Source of the DNA: Bacteroidota bacterium
GTDB lineage: Bacteria; Bacteroidota; Bacteroidia; Palsa-948
NCBI GenBank assembly: GCA_016213405.1
Contig: JACRAM010000078.1
Coordinates: forward strand, 1-58,962
Direction of reading: 5' to 3'
Length of the DNA: 58,962 nt
Part shown: positions 3,086 to 56,912 of the stretch, piece after piece
Layout: every line of letters begins with the position of its first letter
Position numbering within the stretch: position 1 is the first letter of the stretch
Translations under genes and position numbers: made by a program
Notes under the pieces: model-generated
Databases searched by the model: none
Seen by the model: only the letters and a program-made list of their open reading frames with translations
Told to the model about the DNA's origin: nothing

Positions 3086-3952
3086 TCAAAATCCATATCC
3101 TTTATAGTCCTTTGTAAATTCTTCGTCAGGAATTTTTATGTTCACCTGCAAATCGTGGTATTCGTACGATTCAAATAAACCTTTTTCGTCATACACTTTT
3201 ATCACGCGCGGTATGAGCAGTTCTTTGTCAATGTAGAGTATCATTTTGCTGCCGTACACATTGGGCACTTTTATTTTCTGTCCGGCTTTCACATCGTGGT
3301 AATTGCTCACCTTGCCTGAATTTATTTCGAGGAGCATGTAATCGCTCACTTTTAATTTGCGCCCTATCGTTACCAGTGTTTCGCCTTTCAGCACGGTGTA
3401 ATCCACATAGTTAAAAAAGGGATATTCCGCAGTGATAAGGTAACACTCATTAGAATTCCAGGTAAGTGTTCCTCCGTATTTGAAATAATCGTCAAACTTT
3501 TCTCCCACTATGCCGATGGAATTTTTAATAATGCCGGCAAAATAATCAAAGCCGACTTCATAGATGGTGTGATGCTGGTTCTCGCGCATGATGGAACCCA
3601 TGGGGTCAAGGTTCAGATTCATGTACGGAAAGCCATCGGGGTTCACGAGGGCATTATCGTTGTTCTTTCCTTTTATCCATAAAAGTTCAGGTCCTTTCAG
3701 GTAGATATATGCTTTTTTGGGAGAGGCGTTCATTTTAATTTCCGATTCAATAGAAATAAGTTTTCCGTTAAAGCGTTCGTTGCACTTCAGATGAAACTTC
3801 AGCGTTTGTATTTTATCTACCGAAGCAATTGTGTTTTGAAGAATTTCTTTGCAGGAAGGAGAAGAAGGAGAGTAGGCAGTAGGCAGCAGGCAGTAGGCAA
3901 TCAACAACAAAATACTTGATACGTTATACTTAATACCGGATTTAAAAATCAT
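3086..3952 (-). CDS. DUF1571 outer-membrane lipoprotein-sorting-like protein with embedded LysM
   Basis: A 288-residue exported protein. A hydrophobic leader (residues 10-28) is followed by a beta-rich DUF1571-like region from about residue 35, which carries motifs such as LKFHLKCNERFNGK and LYIDKELLIPRVIKVYD. This fold is related to LolA/LolB-type lipoprotein carriers. Residues 184-231 form a LysM module (DYTVLKGETLVTIGRKL to GQKIKVP) placed inside the DUF1571 region, suggesting peptidoglycan binding. The hydrophobic core of the leader is encoded by a heptamer repeat (3870-3900). The gene is monocistronic and divergent from kdsB. Its exact function is not known. Confidence 0.75.
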   Translation of the reverse strand: MIFKSGIKYNVSSILLLIAYCLLPTAYSPSSPSCKEILQNTIASVDKIQTLKFHLKCNERFNGKLISIESEIKMNASPKKAYIYLKGPELLWIKGKNNDNALVNPDGFPYMNLNLDPMGSIMRENQHHTIYEVGFDYFAGIIKNSIGIVGEKFDDYFKYGGTLTWNSNECYLITAEYPFFNYVDYTVLKGETLVTIGRKLKVSDYMLLEINSGKVSNYHDVKAGQKIKVPNVYGSKMILYIDKELLIPRVIKVYDEKGLFESYEYHDLQVNIKIPDEEFTKDYKGYGF

Positions 3953-4014: not shown

Positions 4015-4782
4015 ATGAGAATTTTAGGAATCATCCCCGCCCGCTACGCCTCCACGCGTTTCCCCGGCAAACCGCTTGCTGATGTAAACGGCAAACCGAT
4101 GATTCAGCGCGTGTATGAGCAGGCGAAGAAATGCAAATCGCTTGCTGAAGTGGTGGTGGCTACCGATGACAAACGCATAGAATCCGCTGTAAAAAAGTTT
4201 AAAGGAAAAGTGGTGATGACTTCTGACAAACACGAAAGCGGAACAGACCGGTGTTATGAAGTGCTTCAGAAATTTTTCCCCCTTAAAAAGGGGGGCAGGG
4301 GGGATTCTTTTGACGCTGTCATCAACATTCAGGGCGATGAACCCTTCATTCATCCCGAACAGATTTCAAAAGTAGCGAATTGTTTTAAGGATAAAAATGT
4401 CCAGATTGCAACACTCGCTATGAAGTTAACAAGCATTCACGAACTCACCAATCACAACACCATAAAACTTATTGTCAGTAAAAAGAAGGAAGCGATTTAT
4501 TTCAGCCGGACTGCCATTCCTTATTACAGAGGAGAAGATTTTACCGAATGGCTGAAGATGCACACCTATTACAAACACATAGGTATTTACGGCTACCGCG
4601 CGGATGTGTTGGCGGAAGTCACCAAACTGGAACGCTCCTCTCTTGAAATTGCCGAGTCGCTGGAGCAATTGCGCTGGCTGGAAAATGGTTATCGTATTGC
4701 AGTTGAGTTTACCGAACACGAATCACATTCCATTGACACGCCAGAGGATTTGAAGAACGCTTTAAAGAAATTCTCAAAATGA
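4015..4782 (+). CDS. kdsB: 3-deoxy-manno-octulosonate cytidylyltransferase (CMP-KDO synthetase)
   Basis: This enzyme activates KDO with CTP to give CMP-KDO for lipid A-core assembly in the cytoplasm. At 255 residues it is slightly above the usual 245-250. Family motifs include IIPARYASTRFPGKPL (residues 6-21), ATDD near 50 and INIQGDEPFI near 103-112. Residues about 88-98 (LKKGGRGD) interrupt the normal sequence just before the INIQGDEP motif. They are encoded by a GC-rich palindromic repeat at 4273-4306, so they look like a repeat-derived loop. The stop overlaps the next gene by four bases (ATGA). Confidence 0.95.
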   Translation: MRILGIIPARYASTRFPGKPLADVNGKPMIQRVYEQAKKCKSLAEVVVATDDKRIESAVKKFKGKVVMTSDKHESGTDRCYEVLQKFFPLKKGGRGDSFDAVINIQGDEPFIHPEQISKVANCFKDKNVQIATLAMKLTSIHELTNHNTIKLIVSKKKEAIYFSRTAIPYYRGEDFTEWLKMHTYYKHIGIYGYRADVLAEVTKLERSSLEIAESLEQLRWLENGYRIAVEFTEHESHSIDTPEDLKNALKKFSK

Positions 4783-6342: not shown

Positions 6343-6378
6343 GCCCATCCCTATCCCTTCCCCAAGGGAAGGGGAAAA
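6343..6378. repeat. GC-rich palindrome CCCTTCCCC/GGGAAGGGG
   Basis: CCCTTCCC at 6355-6363 pairs with GGGAAGGGG at 6366-6374. The element sits three bases after the SPOR gene stop and is followed by AAAAAC. The same palindrome with the same flank (AAGCCCATCCC) recurs inverted at the hisG-hisD junction (34206-34240). It may double as a partial terminator. Confidence 0.65.
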
Positions 6379-6386
6379 ACCAATAA

Positions 6387-7253
6387 ATGAGAAATGCAAA
6401 AAATATTTTTTCTTCTCTCTCCCTTTGGGGGAGAGTTGGAGTGGGGCTTCTTTTTTTGTTTGCTTCCTGCAAACCACCGCTTCCGGTTTATTTTGATAAA
6501 CCCATCGGCATTCAGGTGCAGGGATTTGACACTGTTATTGCCGGAAATTATCTTCCGCTGGATGATGTGATCGACAAAGGGAAAAAAGAGTTTTCGGATA
6601 AATACGAGGTGCGATACGATAAAATAATTCCGAAGGATACCGGATTTTCTGTGGAAGTGAACGGCAAGGATATGAATTACGATGAGGTGAAAGATATTCT
6701 TGGCGTTAAAAAAGATTCAGGAACCATAGAGCTGAACCCAAAGGACTGCGACAGTATTTTTCATTCCGTCTGCGCCTTCAACGAATTGATTTCCTCAAAA
6801 CTGGGTTCCGGCATTGATAAGATGGGACCTGTCAAACCTGTTTCGGGAATTGTAAAGATTACTTACGACAGAATATTTTTTATTGGCATTGATTCCACCG
6901 GAAAAAATATGCGCGATACGCTTTTGCATCTGAGCGCCAGGGTTCTTCTCACTAAGTATGCCGGAAAGTATTTTATCAATTTTAAAACTCCTTTTGGCTG
7001 GGAAATCATGCAGATGGATATCTGGGAAGATAAATTCCTGAGCGCCCGCCCTTTTTATTTTACCGATTACAATAATTGCCCTAAGTCGGTGGCAGAACTT
7101 ACTGCATCCACAAAAAATATCTATCCAAACTTAAAACCAGTTTTCAATTCAGAAAAAAAGGTGATTGGCTTTACAGCTATTCTTAATTCGAAATTGTTTG
7201 TGGAGAAACTCAAAAAATCTGAAGAAGTGGTGCTGCTGTTGAAAGTAAAATAA
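6387..7253 (+). CDS. Hypothetical lipoprotein
   Basis: A 288-residue putative lipoprotein of unknown function. The leader ends at LFLFASCK, a lipobox with Cys at about residue 28. Part of the leader (SLSLWGRVGVG) is encoded by a GC-rich palindromic repeat at 6411-6450, so the hydrophobic core of the signal peptide derives from repeat DNA. The mature region shows no recognised domain. It follows the SPOR gene with a 46-base gap filled by a related palindrome, and is convergent with hemJ. Confidence 0.65.
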   Translation: MRNAKNIFSSLSLWGRVGVGLLFLFASCKPPLPVYFDKPIGIQVQGFDTVIAGNYLPLDDVIDKGKKEFSDKYEVRYDKIIPKDTGFSVEVNGKDMNYDEVKDILGVKKDSGTIELNPKDCDSIFHSVCAFNELISSKLGSGIDKMGPVKPVSGIVKITYDRIFFIGIDSTGKNMRDTLLHLSARVLLTKYAGKYFINFKTPFGWEIMQMDIWEDKFLSARPFYFTDYNNCPKSVAELTASTKNIYPNLKPVFNSEKKVIGFTAILNSKLFVEKLKKSEEVVLLLKVK

Positions 7254-18945: not shown

Positions 18946-20238
18946 TTATTTCAGCAGCGTATTTCCAACCGAACATTCCAAACATTTTTTCTTTGAACAG
19001 TATTCATTTTTTAGTTGGAGTAATGCCTGAGTTTCGTAAGATGATTTGGCGGAAACTCCGATGAATTTCCATTTTCCGATGATGGAATTATTTTCAGGAG
19101 AAAGTTTTTCTAAGAAGGACAAAGCATTGTCGCAGAATTTTTCCTGACCTTTTTCTTTTCCGTAAACAAAAAGAAATGGAACAATTGTGTTGATGATGAT
19201 TGTATTGATGGAGCCGGAGCCGAGTTTCTTTTTTCTCTTAGTAGAATGTTTATCGAAGCGGTAATGAGTTTGCCAGTATTCACTGGTTTCGGTGTTGAGT
19301 AGATTAATAATCTGCTTTACAGTTGCGGCTTCTAAGATTCTTGAAAAGAGGTGTGAGGATTTATAAATCAGATTCGCGAATTGTGAAATACGAATTGTTG
19401 GAAAGTTGGGAGGGTGAAGCCGCATAAATTTCCATAGGGATGGCTCAATAGGTTTTAGTTTAAACTTACTCTTGAGAAACTTATATTCTTTTTGCAACTC
19501 TAAATAATATTCGTCATGCGCCCTCTCCCCATTGGGGAGAGATGGAGAGGGGTCCAGCATCCCAGATGTTCCAAAAAGCAATGCTTCTATCTGTCCTAAA
19601 TTATTTTTATGTTTTGCCAGAATAGAAACAGGCAATTGCTTTGCAAGCAATTCAAACGGCTCTGAATTGATTTTCTGTCCGAAATTGCGGGCGAGCATTT
19701 GATACAAAATTTCTTCCCAGTTGTTTTTGTTTTGTTTAAGCGAATCGGTGATGGCTTTTGATTTTCTTTCCAACCGTTCGACAAGCAACCGATCAATCCA
19801 GTTGTTGAGCGTGAATTTATCTACAGATGAAATCTGTTTCTCGCAGGGAATCCAGTCTTTGCTGGATTTGAATTGCAAATATTTTCCGTAAACATCTTGA
19901 GGAATTCTTTTCTTGAGTTCCAGTGTTGGAATTTCTTCTCCGCTTTTTCGGAAAAGTTTTTCATCCGCTTCATGCACCACATGAAGAATGATATTATCGT
20001 ATGCTTTGTCGGTGGTGTGCTTGTGCTTGTGCCAGTCGGAAGCGCTGGCGTGAATCTCCACATTGCCTGCCCATTCGGTTGCGCCAATTTTAATTCTCGC
20101 ATTAAAAAAATCAGGGCCCGAATCTGAATTATGTTCTCCGATTTTCAGGATTTTAATTTCTTCTCCCGAAGTGGTTTGCAAATCTTTATTATCAAACAAA
20201 CGGAACTTCCAGATATGCCAGAGGAATTCTTCTTGCAT
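18946..20238 (-). CDS. DUF2851 family protein
   Basis: A 430-residue DUF2851 protein, common in Bacteroidota and of unknown function. It is recognised by the N-terminal EEFLWHIWKFRLFD, the GNVEIHASASDWHKHKH motif and the four-Cys tail ending CSKKKCLECSVGN. The His-rich and Cys-rich motifs suggest metal binding. In mid-protein DPSPSLPNGERAHD is encoded by a GC-rich palindrome at 19519-19552 and looks like a repeat-derived insertion. It is the probable first gene of a minus-strand operon with PspC. Confidence 0.85.
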   Translation of the reverse strand: MQEEFLWHIWKFRLFDNKDLQTTSGEEIKILKIGEHNSDSGPDFFNARIKIGATEWAGNVEIHASASDWHKHKHTTDKAYDNIILHVVHEADEKLFRKSGEEIPTLELKKRIPQDVYGKYLQFKSSKDWIPCEKQISSVDKFTLNNWIDRLLVERLERKSKAITDSLKQNKNNWEEILYQMLARNFGQKINSEPFELLAKQLPVSILAKHKNNLGQIEALLFGTSGMLDPSPSLPNGERAHDEYYLELQKEYKFLKSKFKLKPIEPSLWKFMRLHPPNFPTIRISQFANLIYKSSHLFSRILEAATVKQIINLLNTETSEYWQTHYRFDKHSTKRKKKLGSGSINTIIINTIVPFLFVYGKEKGQEKFCDNALSFLEKLSPENNSIIGKWKFIGVSAKSSYETQALLQLKNEYCSKKKCLECSVGNTLLK

Positions 20239-31889: not shown

Positions 31890-32932
31890 TTGTATTGATT
31901 TAGAACTGCTAACAGTTTTTTATTTTCATCTTTTGTTCCCACAGTGATTCTCAAACAACCTTCGCAAAGAGCAATATTACTTCTGTCGCGCACAATAATC
32001 CCCGTCCCAACTAAATATTTGTAAATCTTTTTCGGCTCGGTAGTTTTTACTAAGAGAAAATTTGCATCGCTGGGAAATATTTTTTGCACGAATGAAAAAT
32101 CAGCAAGTGACTTCGTCAGCTTTTCTCTTTCATTTACAATTTCTTTTATCCAGTTATTCACTTGTTCAATATTATCCAAAGCTTTTATCGCAAGTTGCTG
32201 TGAAGCCTCATTAATATTGTAAGGCGGCTTTATTTTGTTGAACACGGAAATAATTTCTTCGCTCGCGAACGCCATACCGATTCTCAACCCAGCCATTCCC
32301 CATGCTTTGGAAAGTGTTTGCATCACAACGAGATTGGAATATTTATTTAGCTCAGGAGTGAAGCTTTTCTGTTTTGAGAAATTAATGTACGCTTCATCAA
32401 TCACCATAATACCTCTAAAATTATTCAGGATAAATTCTATGTCTTCTCTCTCTAATGAATTACCTGTTGGGTTGTTCGGAGAGCAGAGAAAAATCAGTTT
32501 CGTATTATCGTTCACGACTTCGGAAATTCCTTCAGCATTTAATTGAAATTCTGCTGTGAGCGAAACCTTTTTTATGATAACATCATTGATGTTTGCCGAC
32601 ACTTCAAACATTCCGTACGTTGGCGGAAGGAGAATTACATTGTCTTTACCGGGATTGCAGAAAGCTCGGTAAAGAATGTCAATCACCTCATCACTTCCGT
32701 TGCCGAGAAAAATATTTTTTACAGGTACTCCTTTTATTTTTGAAATCTTTTCTTTCAGTTTTAGTTGATGCGGGTCAGGATAGCGGTTGTAGTTTTTCTC
32801 CAGCGGAGAGCCATGTGCATTTTCGTTCGCATCCAGAAAAACACTTGCTTCTCCCTTGAACTCATCTCTTGCAGAGGAATAAGGAACAAGATTTTTTATG
32901 TTCTCTCGTATTATTTTATTTAAATCAAACAT
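31886..32932 (-). CDS. hisC: Histidinol-phosphate aminotransferase
   Basis: A 348-residue PLP-dependent class II aminotransferase that converts imidazole acetol phosphate to L-histidinol phosphate. It shows [35 protein letters not shown] and the PLP lysine in [15 protein letters not shown]. It overlaps hisD by eight bases and hisB by four, consistent with translational coupling. Confidence 0.96.
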
Positions 32933-34190
32933 TTTTATTCAATCTTATTGTTACAGCATTTTTGTGAGCATTTAATCCTTCTGCATCTGCCATTAGCTCA
33001 ACTGCCTTGCCGATTTTTTTCAATCCCTCTTTCGATAATTTCTGAAAAGTAATTTTCTTCACAAAACTGTCTAATGAAACCCCACTATAAGATTTTGCAT
33101 AACTGTTTGTTGGCAAAGTGTGGTTTGTCCCCGATGCATAATCACCTGCGCTTTCAGGAGAATAATTGCCGATGAAAACAGAGCCTGCATTAATTACTTT
33201 CGTTGCAAGTTTATCAGCATCCTTGCAGGAAACAATCAAATGCTCAGGCGCATATTCATTCAGCAAATCAATTGCCTCTTTTTTATTCTTGACAAGAATT
33301 GCTTTGCTGTTCTGTAGTGCCTTCATTGCAATTTCTTTTCTGGGAAGTTTTTCTAATTGAAGCGATATTTCCTTTTGAACTCCCTGAATTATTTTTTCAG
33401 AATCAGAAACTAAAATCACTTGTGAGTCCGCTCCATGCTCTGCCTGAGAAAGTAAATCAGAAGCTACAAACGCAGGAATACAACTTTCATCCGCCAGCAC
33501 CGCAACTTCGGAAGGACCCGCAGGCATGTCTATGGCGATGCCATCTTTCTGTATTAATTGTTTCGCACAGGTCACGTATTGATTTCCAGGACCAAATATC
33601 TTATTCACTTTCGGAATAGTTTCTGTTCCGTAAGCCATCGCTCCAATCGCTTGTGCTCCTCCTGCTTTGAAAACTTTTTTAATGCCAACCAGCTTTGCTA
33701 CATATAATATAGTATCGTCCGCGGAAGGAGTACAAAGAATAATTTCTTTACATCCGGCAATTCTTGCAGGAATTCCGAGCATTAGTATTGAAGAAAATAA
33801 GGGTGCGCTTCCTCCGGGAATATACAGCCCGACATTTTCTATTGCAACAGATTTCCTCCAGCACTTTACTCCTTTAACCGTTTCAATCACTATTACTTTT
33901 TCCTTTTGTGCGAGGTGAAATTTTTCAATGTTTCTTTTTGCTAACTGAATGGCAGATTTTAATTCTTTGGAAATGGCCTCACCCCATCCCTCTCCGAAGG
34001 AGAGGGGGTTGGGATCAAAATCTACTTTATCAAATTGACGGGAATATTTCTGTAATGCTGAATTTCCATTCTCCTTCACATCATTCAAAATAGTCTGAAT
34101 AGAATTTTCCAGTGCAGAAGAATCCATTGAAGGACGCCTCAGCAATTCCGCCCATTCATTTCGTTTCGGGTATTTAATTATTTGCATCAT
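32925..34190 (-). CDS. hisD: Histidinol dehydrogenase
   Basis: A 421-residue zinc- and NAD-dependent enzyme that oxidises L-histidinol to L-histidine. Signatures are YIPGGSAPLFSSILMLGIPA, GPGNQYVTCAKQL, DMPAGPSEVAVLADE and the late GTNHTLPTN. Start choice is open: ATG at 34190 gives the normal N-terminus (MMQIIKYPKR), while GTG at 34241 overlaps the hisG stop by four bases but adds 17 residues coded by a GC-rich palindrome. Inside the gene PNPLSFGEGWGE is coded by another palindrome (33977-34016). Both suggest repeat insertion into the operon. Confidence 0.95.
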   Translation of the reverse strand: MMQIIKYPKRNEWAELLRRPSMDSSALENSIQTILNDVKENGNSALQKYSRQFDKVDFDPNPLSFGEGWGEAISKELKSAIQLAKRNIEKFHLAQKEKVIVIETVKGVKCWRKSVAIENVGLYIPGGSAPLFSSILMLGIPARIAGCKEIILCTPSADDTILYVAKLVGIKKVFKAGGAQAIGAMAYGTETIPKVNKIFGPGNQYVTCAKQLIQKDGIAIDMPAGPSEVAVLADESCIPAFVASDLLSQAEHGADSQVILVSDSEKIIQGVQKEISLQLEKLPRKEIAMKALQNSKAILVKNKKEAIDLLNEYAPEHLIVSCKDADKLATKVINAGSVFIGNYSPESAGDYASGTNHTLPTNSYAKSYSGVSLDSFVKKITFQKLSKEGLKKIGKAVELMADAEGLNAHKNAVTIRLNKNV

Positions 34191-34205
34191 CTGTTTTTTC
34201 TTTCT

Positions 34206-34240
34206 CCCTTCCCTTGGGGAAGGGTTGGGGATGGGCTTCA
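34206..34240. repeat. GC-rich palindrome at the hisG-hisD junction
   Basis: CCCTTCCC at 34206-34213 pairs with GGGGAAGGG at 34216-34224, followed by TTGGGGATGGGCTTC. This is the same element, in opposite orientation, as at 6343-6378. It separates the otherwise overlapping his genes. Confidence 0.7.
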
Positions 34241-35092
34241 CACTATCATTTTCTCAATCGGTACAACTAAAATTCCCTGTGCTCCATTGTCTTTTAACTG
34301 CTCAATTATTTCCCAGAATTTTTCTTCATCAATTACCGAATGCAAAGAACTCCATCCTTTTTCTGCCAAAGGTAATATGGTAGGGCTTTTCATTCCCGGA
34401 AGGATTTTACAGATAGCATCCAGCTTTTCATTTGGAGCATTGAGCAAAACATATTTATTGTGGCGGGATTTCTTCACAGCTTTAATTCGGAACAATAATT
34501 TTTTCAGTATAGCAGATTTCTCTTTGTCTAATTTTGTTCCTGAAACAAAAACGGCTTCTGATTTCATCACAACTTCCGTTTCTTTGAGACCGTTGGCAAA
34601 CAATGTGCTTCCTGAACTTACCAAATCACAAATCGCATCAGCCAATCCTACGCTGGGCGCAATCTCCACCGAACCGCTCACCGTTTCAATCTTCGCCTCC
34701 ACTTTTTTCTTCTTCAGATATTTTGAAAGAATGACAGGATAGCTCGTTGCAATTTTTTTTCCACGAAGTTCTTTGATGGATTTGTATTCCGCATTCTTCG
34801 GAACAGCAATGGACAAACGGCATTTTCCAAAACCGAGTTTCTCCACCACTTTCAGTTTTTTGTTGGTCTCGTAAATAATATTTTCGCCTACAATTCCCGC
34901 ATCGGCAACACCGTCTTCTACGTATTGTGGAATATCGTCATCGCGCAAAAACAAAACTTCCAGCGGAAAATTATATGCTTCTGAACGGAGTTTGTTCAGT
35001 CCGTTACTGAGCTCAATGCCTGACTCACGAAGTATCTTAATTGAATCTTCGTAAAGACGTCCTGATTTTTGAATTGCAATTTTTAGTTTCAT
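34238..35092 (-). CDS. hisG: ATP phosphoribosyltransferase, long form
   Basis: A 284-residue first enzyme of histidine synthesis, joining ATP and PRPP. At this length it is the long form with a C-terminal ACT-like regulatory domain, so feedback inhibition by histidine is expected. It shows LKIAIQKSGRLYEDSIKIL, VEDGVADAGIVGENII, the PRPP-binding ICDLVSSGSTLFANGL, and the tail GAQGILVVPIEKMIV. It is the first structural gene after the leader and attenuator. Confidence 0.96.
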   Translation of the reverse strand: MKLKIAIQKSGRLYEDSIKILRESGIELSNGLNKLRSEAYNFPLEVLFLRDDDIPQYVEDGVADAGIVGENIIYETNKKLKVVEKLGFGKCRLSIAVPKNAEYKSIKELRGKKIATSYPVILSKYLKKKKVEAKIETVSGSVEIAPSVGLADAICDLVSSGSTLFANGLKETEVVMKSEAVFVSGTKLDKEKSAILKKLLFRIKAVKKSRHNKYVLLNAPNEKLDAICKILPGMKSPTILPLAEKGWSSLHSVIDEEKFWEIIEQLKDNGAQGILVVPIEKMIV

Positions 35093-48569: not shown

Positions 48570-49634
48570 CTAACTCCTCTCCTCAAGGAGAGGAGAAATA
48601 GGTTTTACTCCTATTCCCGGCAAATCATTAAGGATAATTTTTCCTTCGGAGAATTTTATTCCGTCAAAATAATCTTCTTTGATAAGGAGTGGTCCGTCAA
48701 GGTCAATCCAATCAACAAGCGGAGCGATTTGCGCTGCAGCAGAAACTGCACAGGAAGTTTCAGACATGCAGCCGAGCATGATTTTCATTCCGTATTTTCT
48801 TGCCTGCAAAATCATTTTGCGCGCTTCATTCATACCGGTGCATTTCATCAGCTTAATATTTATACCGCTATAAATTCCCTTTGTCCTTTCTAAATCAGAA
48901 AGTCTTTTTACAGCTTCATCCGCAATAATGGGAACGGGGGAATTTTCTGTGAGCCAGGCGATATCGTCAATTTGTTCTTTCGGCATGGGCTGTTCGCAAA
49001 AAAGACATTTTCTGTCTGCGAGCCAGTGAATAATGTCCAGCGCAAAATGTTTATCTGTCCATCCTTCATTAGCGTCAACAAAAAATTCTTTTTTAGTATG
49101 TTTTTGAATTTCTTCTATGATTTTTTTATCGTCAGAGGAGCCGAGTTTTACTTTAAGAAGTTTATATTTCTTCGCCTCCTCTATTCTTTCCCGAATTCCT
49201 TTCGGGTTGTCAATAGGGATAGTATACGCTGTGAAAAGATTTTTATTTATATCTACTCCGAAGATTTCATGACAGGGTTTGTTCAGAAATTTTCCAAGTA
49301 AATCATGAAGAGCAATGTCAACAGATGCTTTGGCGGCATTGTTTCCTTTTTCAATCTTATCAACTTCAGCAAGAATCATTTCAATGTCATTCAGATTAGA
49401 CAATTTTTGCTCAGAAGGAACACATTCTGAAAAATGTTTTTCTACTTTCCCTAAAAATTTCAAAACCGTTTCAAGAGTTTCTCCTATATAGGGAGGCACG
49501 GATGCTTCTCCATATCCTGAAAATCCTTTATGTTCCAATCGTGTAAATACAACAGGAGTGGAATCCCTGCTTCCGTGTGCGATGGAAAACGGGCGTTTGA
49601 ATTTTAATATATGAGGAACAAAAGAAAGTTTCAC
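48570..49634 (-). CDS. Dipeptide epimerase (L-Ala-D/L-Glu epimerase family)
   Basis: A 354-residue enolase-superfamily enzyme that epimerises the second residue of dipeptides such as L-Ala-D-Glu from peptidoglycan. It shows HILKFKRPFSIAHGSRD, the Lys pair LLKVKLGSSDDKK, metal ligands in FVDANEGWT, FCEQPMPKEQ and IADEAVKRL, and the second Lys in GINIKLMKCTGM. The GTG at 49634 is chosen because it gives the canonical VKLSFVPH start; GTG at 49664 is an alternative. The last residues (ISPLLEERS) come from a GC-rich palindrome. Confidence 0.85.
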   Translation of the reverse strand: MKLSFVPHILKFKRPFSIAHGSRDSTPVVFTRLEHKGFSGYGEASVPPYIGETLETVLKFLGKVEKHFSECVPSEQKLSNLNDIEMILAEVDKIEKGNNAAKASVDIALHDLLGKFLNKPCHEIFGVDINKNLFTAYTIPIDNPKGIRERIEEAKKYKLLKVKLGSSDDKKIIEEIQKHTKKEFFVDANEGWTDKHFALDIIHWLADRKCLFCEQPMPKEQIDDIAWLTENSPVPIIADEAVKRLSDLERTKGIYSGINIKLMKCTGMNEARKMILQARKYGMKIMLGCMSETSCAVSAAAQIAPLVDWIDLDGPLLIKEDYFDGIKFSEGKIILNDLPGIGVKPISPLLEERS

Positions 49635-56243: not shown

Positions 56244-56278
56244 CAAACTACAAAAGTTTTCAAAACTTTTGTAGTTTG
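56244..56278. repeat. REP palindrome upstream of RAYT
   Basis: CAAACTACAAAAGTTTT (56244-56260) and AAAACTTTTGTAGTTTG (56262-56278) are exact inverted copies around one central C. It starts four bases after the thiG stop and 23 bases before the RAYT ATG. It shares the CAAAAGTT/AACTTTTG core with the other two copies. Confidence 0.9.
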
Positions 56279-56300
56279 TGCCTGCAAGCATACTTTAAAA

Positions 56301-56858
56301 ATGGAAGAAGAAAAATTTTACCATATTTTTAACAGGGGAAATAATCGAGAAAATATTTTTAAAGAAGAAGACAACTATTATTATTTCCTAAAACAATATG
56401 AAAAATATCTTTTAAATACTGTTGATACGTATGCGTATTGTTTAATGCCCAATCATTTTCATTTGCTGGTACAAATAAAAAAAATCGAAAACAAAACCTC
56501 AAAAGCTTTATCACGCCTAACTCCGGCAGAAAAGGCATTTAAAGATTTCTTCATCTCGTATGCTAAGAGTATAAATAAAAAATACGGACGCACAGGAAGT
56601 TTGTTTCAGTATAAGTTCAAGAGAAAAGAAATCAAGGACGAAATGTATTTAAAGAAGTTGATTTTATATATTCATCAGAATCCCGTAGCGGCTGGTTTTT
56701 GCGAACAGCTGCATGAATGGAAATTTTCCTCCTTTCATGCTCTTTTATCCGACTCTCCTACAAAACTCATGCGAAAAGAAGTTATAGATTGGTTCGAAGA
56801 CAAAGAAAATTTTATTTATTGTCATAAAAAATTAGTAGAGGTATATGAAGATTATTAA
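56301..56858 (+). CDS. REP-associated tyrosine transposase (RAYT, Y1_Tnp / IS200-like)
   Basis: A 185-residue single-strand DNA transposase of the HUH Y1 type. The metal-binding HUH motif is His52-Phe-His54 in MPNHFHLLVQI. The likely catalytic Tyr is Tyr87 in DFFISYAKSINKKYGRTGS, followed by the typical LFQYKFKRKEI and YIHQNPVAAGF. The ATG at 56301 is chosen because it begins the conserved FYHIFNRGNN; the in-frame extension to 56169 lies in thiG and the palindrome. It is bracketed by two palindromes, the hallmark of RAYT-REP systems. All key residues are intact. Confidence 0.92.
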   Translation: MEEEKFYHIFNRGNNRENIFKEEDNYYYFLKQYEKYLLNTVDTYAYCLMPNHFHLLVQIKKIENKTSKALSRLTPAEKAFKDFFISYAKSINKKYGRTGSLFQYKFKRKEIKDEMYLKKLILYIHQNPVAAGFCEQLHEWKFSSFHALLSDSPTKLMRKEVIDWFEDKENFIYCHKKLVEVYEDY

Positions 56859-56877
56859 AACACTTCAAAAGAAACAT

Positions 56878-56912
56878 CATACTTCAAAAGTTCTTAAAAC
56901 TTTTGAAGTATG
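56878..56912. repeat. REP palindrome downstream of RAYT
   Basis: CATACTTCAAAAGTT (56878-56892) and AACTTTTGAAGTATG (56898-56912) are exact inverted copies with a five-base loop. A half-copy, CACTTCAAAAG, lies at 56861-56871. The last three bases are the ATG of the next gene. Confidence 0.9.

Follow-up and report, generated by a model that had tools for sequence, protein, structure and literature searches.

The 34-nt palindromic insert carried in frame by kdsB in this Bacteroidota genome is likely to be the solo, non-autonomous end of a mobile element linked to DUF559 genes, translated and tolerated in a surface loop of the enzyme. It is read in this way because it matches one end of an intergenic DUF559 unit in the same genome (C116) at 29 of 35 positions and the left end of a DUF559 unit nested in tsaD at 30 of 38. 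The repeat family, its in-frame insertion, the empty sites of congeners, the association of DUF559 genes with palindromes, and the occurrence of empty, solo, and full states at one site are shown; no movement was observed, and that DUF559 performs it is inferred. All data are draft metagenome assemblies, although genomes assembled independently show the same sites. The window is the whole stretch of DNA analyzed, 58,962 nt in length, and the host gene and the parts of its insert lie in it as follows.

4015..4782, plus strand: kdsB, the host gene, encoding a CMP-Kdo synthetase of 255 amino acids (NCBIfam, PDB match, and predicted fold)
4273..4306, plus strand: solo palindromic element (hairpin and G-run tail), in frame in kdsB, encoding FFPLKKGGRGD
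4278..4294, plus strand: hairpin of the element, CCCCCTT-AAA-AAGGGGG, read from the sequence
4295..4306, plus strand: tail of the element, GCAGGGGGGATT, common to the copies in dxr, ligA, the flippase gene, and u25

The open reading frame at 4015-4782 was identified as KdsB by NCBIfam (NF003952, 1.4e-99), and both the PDB sequence match and the AlphaFold fold agree with this assignment. It is the single full-length kdsB match in a 95%-complete genome, the runner-up being a 64-residue fragment that scores 34 bits. The palindrome and its tail at 4273-4306 (TTTTTCCCCCTTAAAAAGGGGGGCAGGGGGGATT) lie in frame within this gene and represent a net gain of 24 nt, or 8 amino acids, relative to three congener orthologues (L011, L015, and L016), with a fourth (L014) differing by one more residue. 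The congeners are uncultured “Bacteroidetes bacterium” assemblies whose isolate names suggest groundwater and palsa. The insert is present in this genome (G000) and absent from four of the six congeners (G001, G003, G004, and G005); G002 carries a decayed copy at the identical codon position (TTCCCCCTTAAAAAAGGAGGCAAGAGGGTTGTT), and G006 carries a short remnant. On the kdsB gene tree, this distribution requires several losses or repeated hits, and the ancestral state remains undecided. A second, independent GC-rich palindrome, YLTPSPLFRGREVGGE, is found in the kdsB of G004 (L016), 20 residues beyond the first site.

The insert peptide is absent from all PDB KdsBs compared, in which the length of the loop varies by a few residues, and from the KdsBs of Mucilaginibacter and Flavobacteriales included in the alignment. 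The initial annotation had claimed that the peptide breaks a region that is continuous in other KdsBs, a claim that the same residues in distant taxa without the repeat would have refuted. The claim held: the insert is missing from all PDB KdsBs and from four of the six congeners, and in the KdsB alignment, the residues were seen only in close relatives carrying the repeat. In the AlphaFold model, insert residues 91 to 96 are the sole stretch with a pLDDT below 50, within an otherwise normal KdsB fold, and they are placed between helix 76-87 and strand 101-104, the strand that precedes the QGDEP motif. A predicted low-confidence loop between secondary structures is compatible with exposure, which was not computed. 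The DNA hairpin is no more stable than composition-matched shuffles (z = −0.59), and the evidence for an element therefore comes from its repetition and not from its folding energy.

Pattern searches of genomes revealed that the repeat is dispersed. The pattern CCCCCTT-N-AAGGGGGNNNGGGGG occurs nine times in the 3.65-Mb genome, compared with one occurrence of the reversed pattern used as a control, and a slightly different spacing gives nine copies against none. The claim of the initial annotation that the palindrome is a dispersed repeat lying in frame inside an essential gene thus held on the nine genome copies, and the search showed that other genes carry the repeat as well. What the annotation had missed was the connection with DUF559 genes and the existence of complete nested elements. 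Across the seven genomes of the genus there are 23 exact copies and no reversed ones. Nineteen of these 23 are in frame within genes recognized by Pfam or by congener homologues, with hosts that include kdsB, dxr, glyA, ligA, murB, a flippase gene, lon, and rnhB (RNase HII), as well as genes for a cysteine-desulfurase-like aminotransferase, RNase R, gamma-glutamyltranspeptidase, and others. Two of the remaining four copies (L008 and L125) touch DUF559 genes.

The repeat is translated in more than one frame and on both strands, giving PLKKGGRG in KdsB, SPPSKGGQGG in LigA, and PPAPLYKGE in Dxr. In congeners, the dxr and glyA sites are cleanly empty (36 nt and 30 nt, respectively), and the orthologues of ligA, kdsB, and the flippase gene are shorter. 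The GlyA insert amounts to exactly 10 amino acids relative to PDB 2dkj and the LigA insert to 8 relative to PDB 2owo; the Dxr insert overlaps a loop that is occupied by other sequence in Escherichia coli Dxr. At the ligA site, G000, G004, and G005 carry the kdsB-type (C5/G5) unit, and G002 (L067) carries a different palindrome, GGTCGGGATTTGAAATCCCGACC. The possibility that six open reading frames are a built-in property of the unit was rejected, with four frames open in the kdsB copy, two in the murB copy, and all six in 6% of random 32-mers. The cysteine-desulfurase-like gene at L117 encodes the insert-like peptides SPFEGGQGG and PPLEGAGGG, which flank conserved motifs.

The pattern was found in 25 of 395 Bacteroidota genomes, spread over many families, and the reversed pattern in none; beyond the genus most copies are intergenic. 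At the level of the phylum, 15 of 28 repeat loci hold a gene for DUF559, a Vsr-like endonuclease domain, versus none of 78 control loci. The controls (230 kb) had been fetched for other reasons and come mostly from the genus of the window, and the 28 loci derive from about 24 genomes, so the contrast, although strong, rests on imperfectly matched sets. The kdsB-type unit itself flanks DUF559 genes at C116 and C125 in this genome and at C37 in G003. Perfect GC-rich hairpins were counted within 250 nt upstream of stand-alone DUF559 genes, and the same count was made downstream: 32 of 44 genes have one upstream, compared with 17 of 224 control open reading frames (p = 2e-19), and 22 of 44 have one downstream, compared with 17 of 184 (p = 7e-9). 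The two flanks of one gene have longer words in common than shuffled pairs do (7.9 versus 5.4, standard deviation 0.28). The palindrome family varies from one DUF559 gene to another, as illustrated by TCCCCCTT..AAGGGGGA, CCCTTCTCC..GGAGAAGGG, CCTGCCTGCCGGCAGGCAGG, and CCCTCTCC..GGAGAGGG. For one of these families, this genome contains 57 palindromic sites, compared with none for the reversed pattern, and 8 of the 15 sites inspected fall in open frames spanning 180 codons or more.

DUF559 units are also found nested inside genes, many of the DUF559 hits falling in long reading frames. According to Pfam, DUF559 interrupts the domains of TsaD, MutS (MutS_III), RecJ (DHH), acetyl-CoA synthetase (AMP-binding), RecG helicase, LeuRS, MetH, and Sua5/TsaC; it also lies within TsaB and is N-terminal to the pseudouridine-synthase domain of an RluC-like protein. 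Whole palindrome-bounded units are in frame in tsaD, mutS, recJ, recG, acs, leuS, metH, tsaB, and tsaC, forming inserts of about 150 to 174 amino acids that consist of DUF559 and the ends, with inverted palindromes at both junctions. The left end is the reverse complement of the right end at 28 of 28 nt in the PP2C unit (L166) and at 31 of 35 in mutS; for tsaB, acs, tsaD, and recG, the inversion scores of the end pairs overlap those of shuffles or barely exceed them. Polarity differs between the two settings, with the hairpin on the outside of intergenic units and the tail on the outside of nested ones.

Congeners carry the host genes of the nested units without the DUF559 unit. The acs site, located after VFQY(N/H), presents three states, all in frame: it is empty in G000, G001, G002, and G003, is occupied by a bare palindrome in G004 and G006 (16 and 12 codons, respectively), and holds a full DUF559 unit of 169 amino acids in G005. 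Similarly, tsaD contains a full unit in G005 and a shrunken remnant of 26 amino acids in G004, which resembles both ends joined together, possibly following an internal deletion. Target-site duplications were sought at the insertion junctions and none could be defined, because the host loops vary in length. Identity between DUF559 copies from different host genes does not exceed 67%, and for this reason no recent jump was caught. At the mutS site, DUF559 units occur in G002 and G004, and an unrelated insertion of 33 amino acids occurs in G000 (L260).

Residues D56, E67, G70, H73, and D82 of DUF559 are invariant in all 69 copies, and D69 is conserved in 68. Among solved structures, the endonuclease-like protein 3hrl is the closest (E = 1.7e-18). 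This relative's structure, together with the conserved acidic and histidine residues, assigns DUF559 to the Vsr/DUF559 endonuclease fold; nuclease activity is inferred.

In the mechanism that we propose, the full element would consist of a terminal unit, a DUF559 endonuclease-like gene, and a second terminal unit, each unit being a pyrimidine-rich/purine-rich hairpin followed by a tail with a C or G run. The DUF559 protein would cut at or near the hairpin units and thereby drive their copying, acting in trans on solo units, and genes would be entered by bare and full units alike. Where a gene is single-copy and indispensable, an insertion would survive only if it is in frame and in a surface loop, with the insert translated as a flexible extra loop of an enzyme that stays functional. 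Nesting inside essential genes may in turn shield the element from deletion. The role of DUF559 as mobilizer is inferred and, on present evidence, is as easily doubted as believed. That the DUF559 fusion proteins are active, and that residence in essential genes is protective, are likewise inferences.

The most serious rival is that the palindromes are mobile but are moved by something else, the DUF559 genes being passengers that landed between or beside them. This remains possible: the repeat occurs seven times in G082, where DUF559 gave no hit, and the genome contains eight Y1-transposase-like genes. Against it, DUF559 genes have matched palindromes on both sides, the family differing from one gene to the next, and six of seven plasmid DUF559 genes from Cyanobacteria, Deinococcus, and Alphaproteobacteria have a palindrome on at least one side. 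A more specific version, in which the unit is an ordinary REP element mobilized by a RAYT (Y1) transposase, would fit a dispersed palindrome of 30 to 40 nt in a genome with Y1 genes, one of them in the window. It is nevertheless unlikely, as none of the eight Y1 genes has a C5/G5 unit nearby, those inspected have other palindromes, and the unit has no GTAG or CGTC tag and is located inside genes. With no unit close to any Y1 gene, RAYT was ruled against as its mobilizer.

Two further explanations concern the kdsB insert more directly. It could be a local loop indel, arising by slippage or random growth, in a KdsB loop that does vary by a few residues; this is practically excluded by the near-identical 30-nt copies in unrelated genes with clean empty sites and by the zero or one hit to the reversed pattern. 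It could also be removed after transcription, by translational bypass or by splicing of the intein kind. Essential genes can harbor elements of both sorts, and no result obtained here supports removal. Every insert length compared keeps the frame, whereas bypassed elements need not be multiples of three; furthermore, Pfam found no Hint (intein) family in the nested DUF559 proteins, and the nested inserts are explained by DUF559 and its ends, making removal very improbable.

The solo-end reading of the kdsB insert places the units close to several known systems. The Rickettsia palindromic elements (RPE) and the Wolbachia WPE described by Ogata, Claverie, and coworkers (PMC3767692, PMC10969869, PMC2229807) are likewise dispersed palindromes, of several families, in frame in unrelated housekeeping genes, and the RPE peptides are translated at solvent-exposed places, with which the predicted loop of the KdsB insert is compatible. 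Of the RPE criteria, in-frame insertion in pre-existing protein genes is met, whereas the length of about 100 to 150 bp (PMC3767692) is not, the present units being three to four times shorter (about 30 to 45 nt). They differ also in being C/G-rich, in occurring in Bacteroidota, and in their link to an endonuclease-like gene, which is itself found nested in frame in host genes. Like REP/REPIN sequences with their RAYT transposases (PMC3116915, PMC3733652), they are short palindromes on both sides of a single-domain enzyme gene, and solo copies are numerous and belong to several families in each genome. Here, however, the enzyme is the Vsr-like DUF559 rather than a Y1 HUH transposase, and its gene is found in frame inside essential genes. 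The main REP superfamilies are defined by a GTAG or CGTC tag (PMC3733652), and the element at 4273-4306 contains no such tag. Intragenic REPs have already been reported, including one in a DNA ligase (PMC3733652), so in-frame palindromes as such are not new; REPs are mainly extragenic, a description that does not fit the copies in the genus, 19 of 23 of which are in frame in genes, but does fit the mostly extragenic ones outside it.

Vsr-fold homing endonucleases and inteins also place a nuclease domain in frame within conserved genes. The units described here differ from them in having no splicing domain and in that the palindromes bracketing the nuclease also occur alone at many nonallelic sites. 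The small dispersed repeats of Nostoc are named in PMC3116915; these are very small dispersed palindromic repeats, like the present units. No link between DUF559 and palindromes or mobility was found in the open-licence literature searched, and a prior description elsewhere is possible.

The spread of protein-coding palindromes such as RPEs is unexplained, and a candidate enzyme lying between palindrome copies, together with empty, solo, and full states at one site, makes the question testable. The repeats and the repeat-nuclease-repeat units in housekeeping genes would be a kind of mobile DNA tolerated by host proteins and, it appears, little described so far. If correct, this reading provides a common domain, so far without known function, with a role, explains the recurrent PPxPLxKGGxGG-type peptides of annotated proteins, and means that a nuclease domain lives inside MutS, RecJ, TsaD, and other housekeeping proteins without splicing. 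A bolder reading, against which we lean slightly, is that DUF559 genes, together with the palindromes cognate to each, constitute a class of mobile element that is widespread and as yet has no name. A Vsr-like nuclease would copy short hairpin units, the elements would persist nested in frame in essential genes, intein-like without splicing, and the solo ends would account for many GC-rich in-frame repeats of bacterial proteomes.

The window contains further palindromes, listed below.

6355..6373, plus strand: palindrome CCCTTCCCCAAGGGAAGGG, preceded by CCCATCCCTAT; by eye, it resembles the ends of the mutS-nested DUF559 unit
6417..6435, plus strand: palindrome CTCTCCCTTTGGGGGAGAG, followed by TTGGAGTGGGG; by eye, it resembles the right end of the recJ-nested DUF559 unit
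19523..19541, minus strand: palindrome CTCTCCCCATTGGGGAGAG, in frame within the open reading frame 18946-20238 (minus strand)
33988..34006, minus strand: palindrome CCCTCTCCGAAGGAGAGGG, in frame inside hisD (open reading frame 32925-34241, minus strand)
34206..34224, minus strand: palindrome CCCTTCCCTTGGGGAAGGG, at the 5′ end of the hisD open reading frame
48574..48595, minus strand: palindrome CTCCTCTCCTCAAGGAGAGGAG, at the 3′ end of a 376-amino-acid open frame

The palindrome at 6417..6435 falls in the signal-peptide region of the open reading frame 6387-7253, and that at 33988..34006 lies in a length-variable loop also found in other HisD proteins. The two hisD palindromes belong to families other than C5/G5. 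A short tandem repeat of TAGGCAG-type units at 3872-3900, at the start of the open reading frame 3086-3952 (minus strand), encodes YCLLPTAY. Near the C terminus of the RCC1-like open reading frame 1366-2847, a degenerate GCCTGCCGG..GGGCAGG repeat at 2600-2660 (peptide RLPDGQVSGLANPPAAWAGMQ) resembles CCTGCCTGCCGGCAGGCAGG, the palindrome flanking a DUF559 gene of G005 (L184). The region 56244-56912 contains a gene for a Y1 transposase (RAYT-like, PF01797) at 56319-56681 (plus strand) with its own palindromes, CAAACTACAAAAGTTTTCAAAACTTTTGTAGTTTG and CATACTTCAAAAGTTCTTAAAACTTTTGAAGTATG, on either side; this locus is a REP-type system separate from the C5/G5 units.
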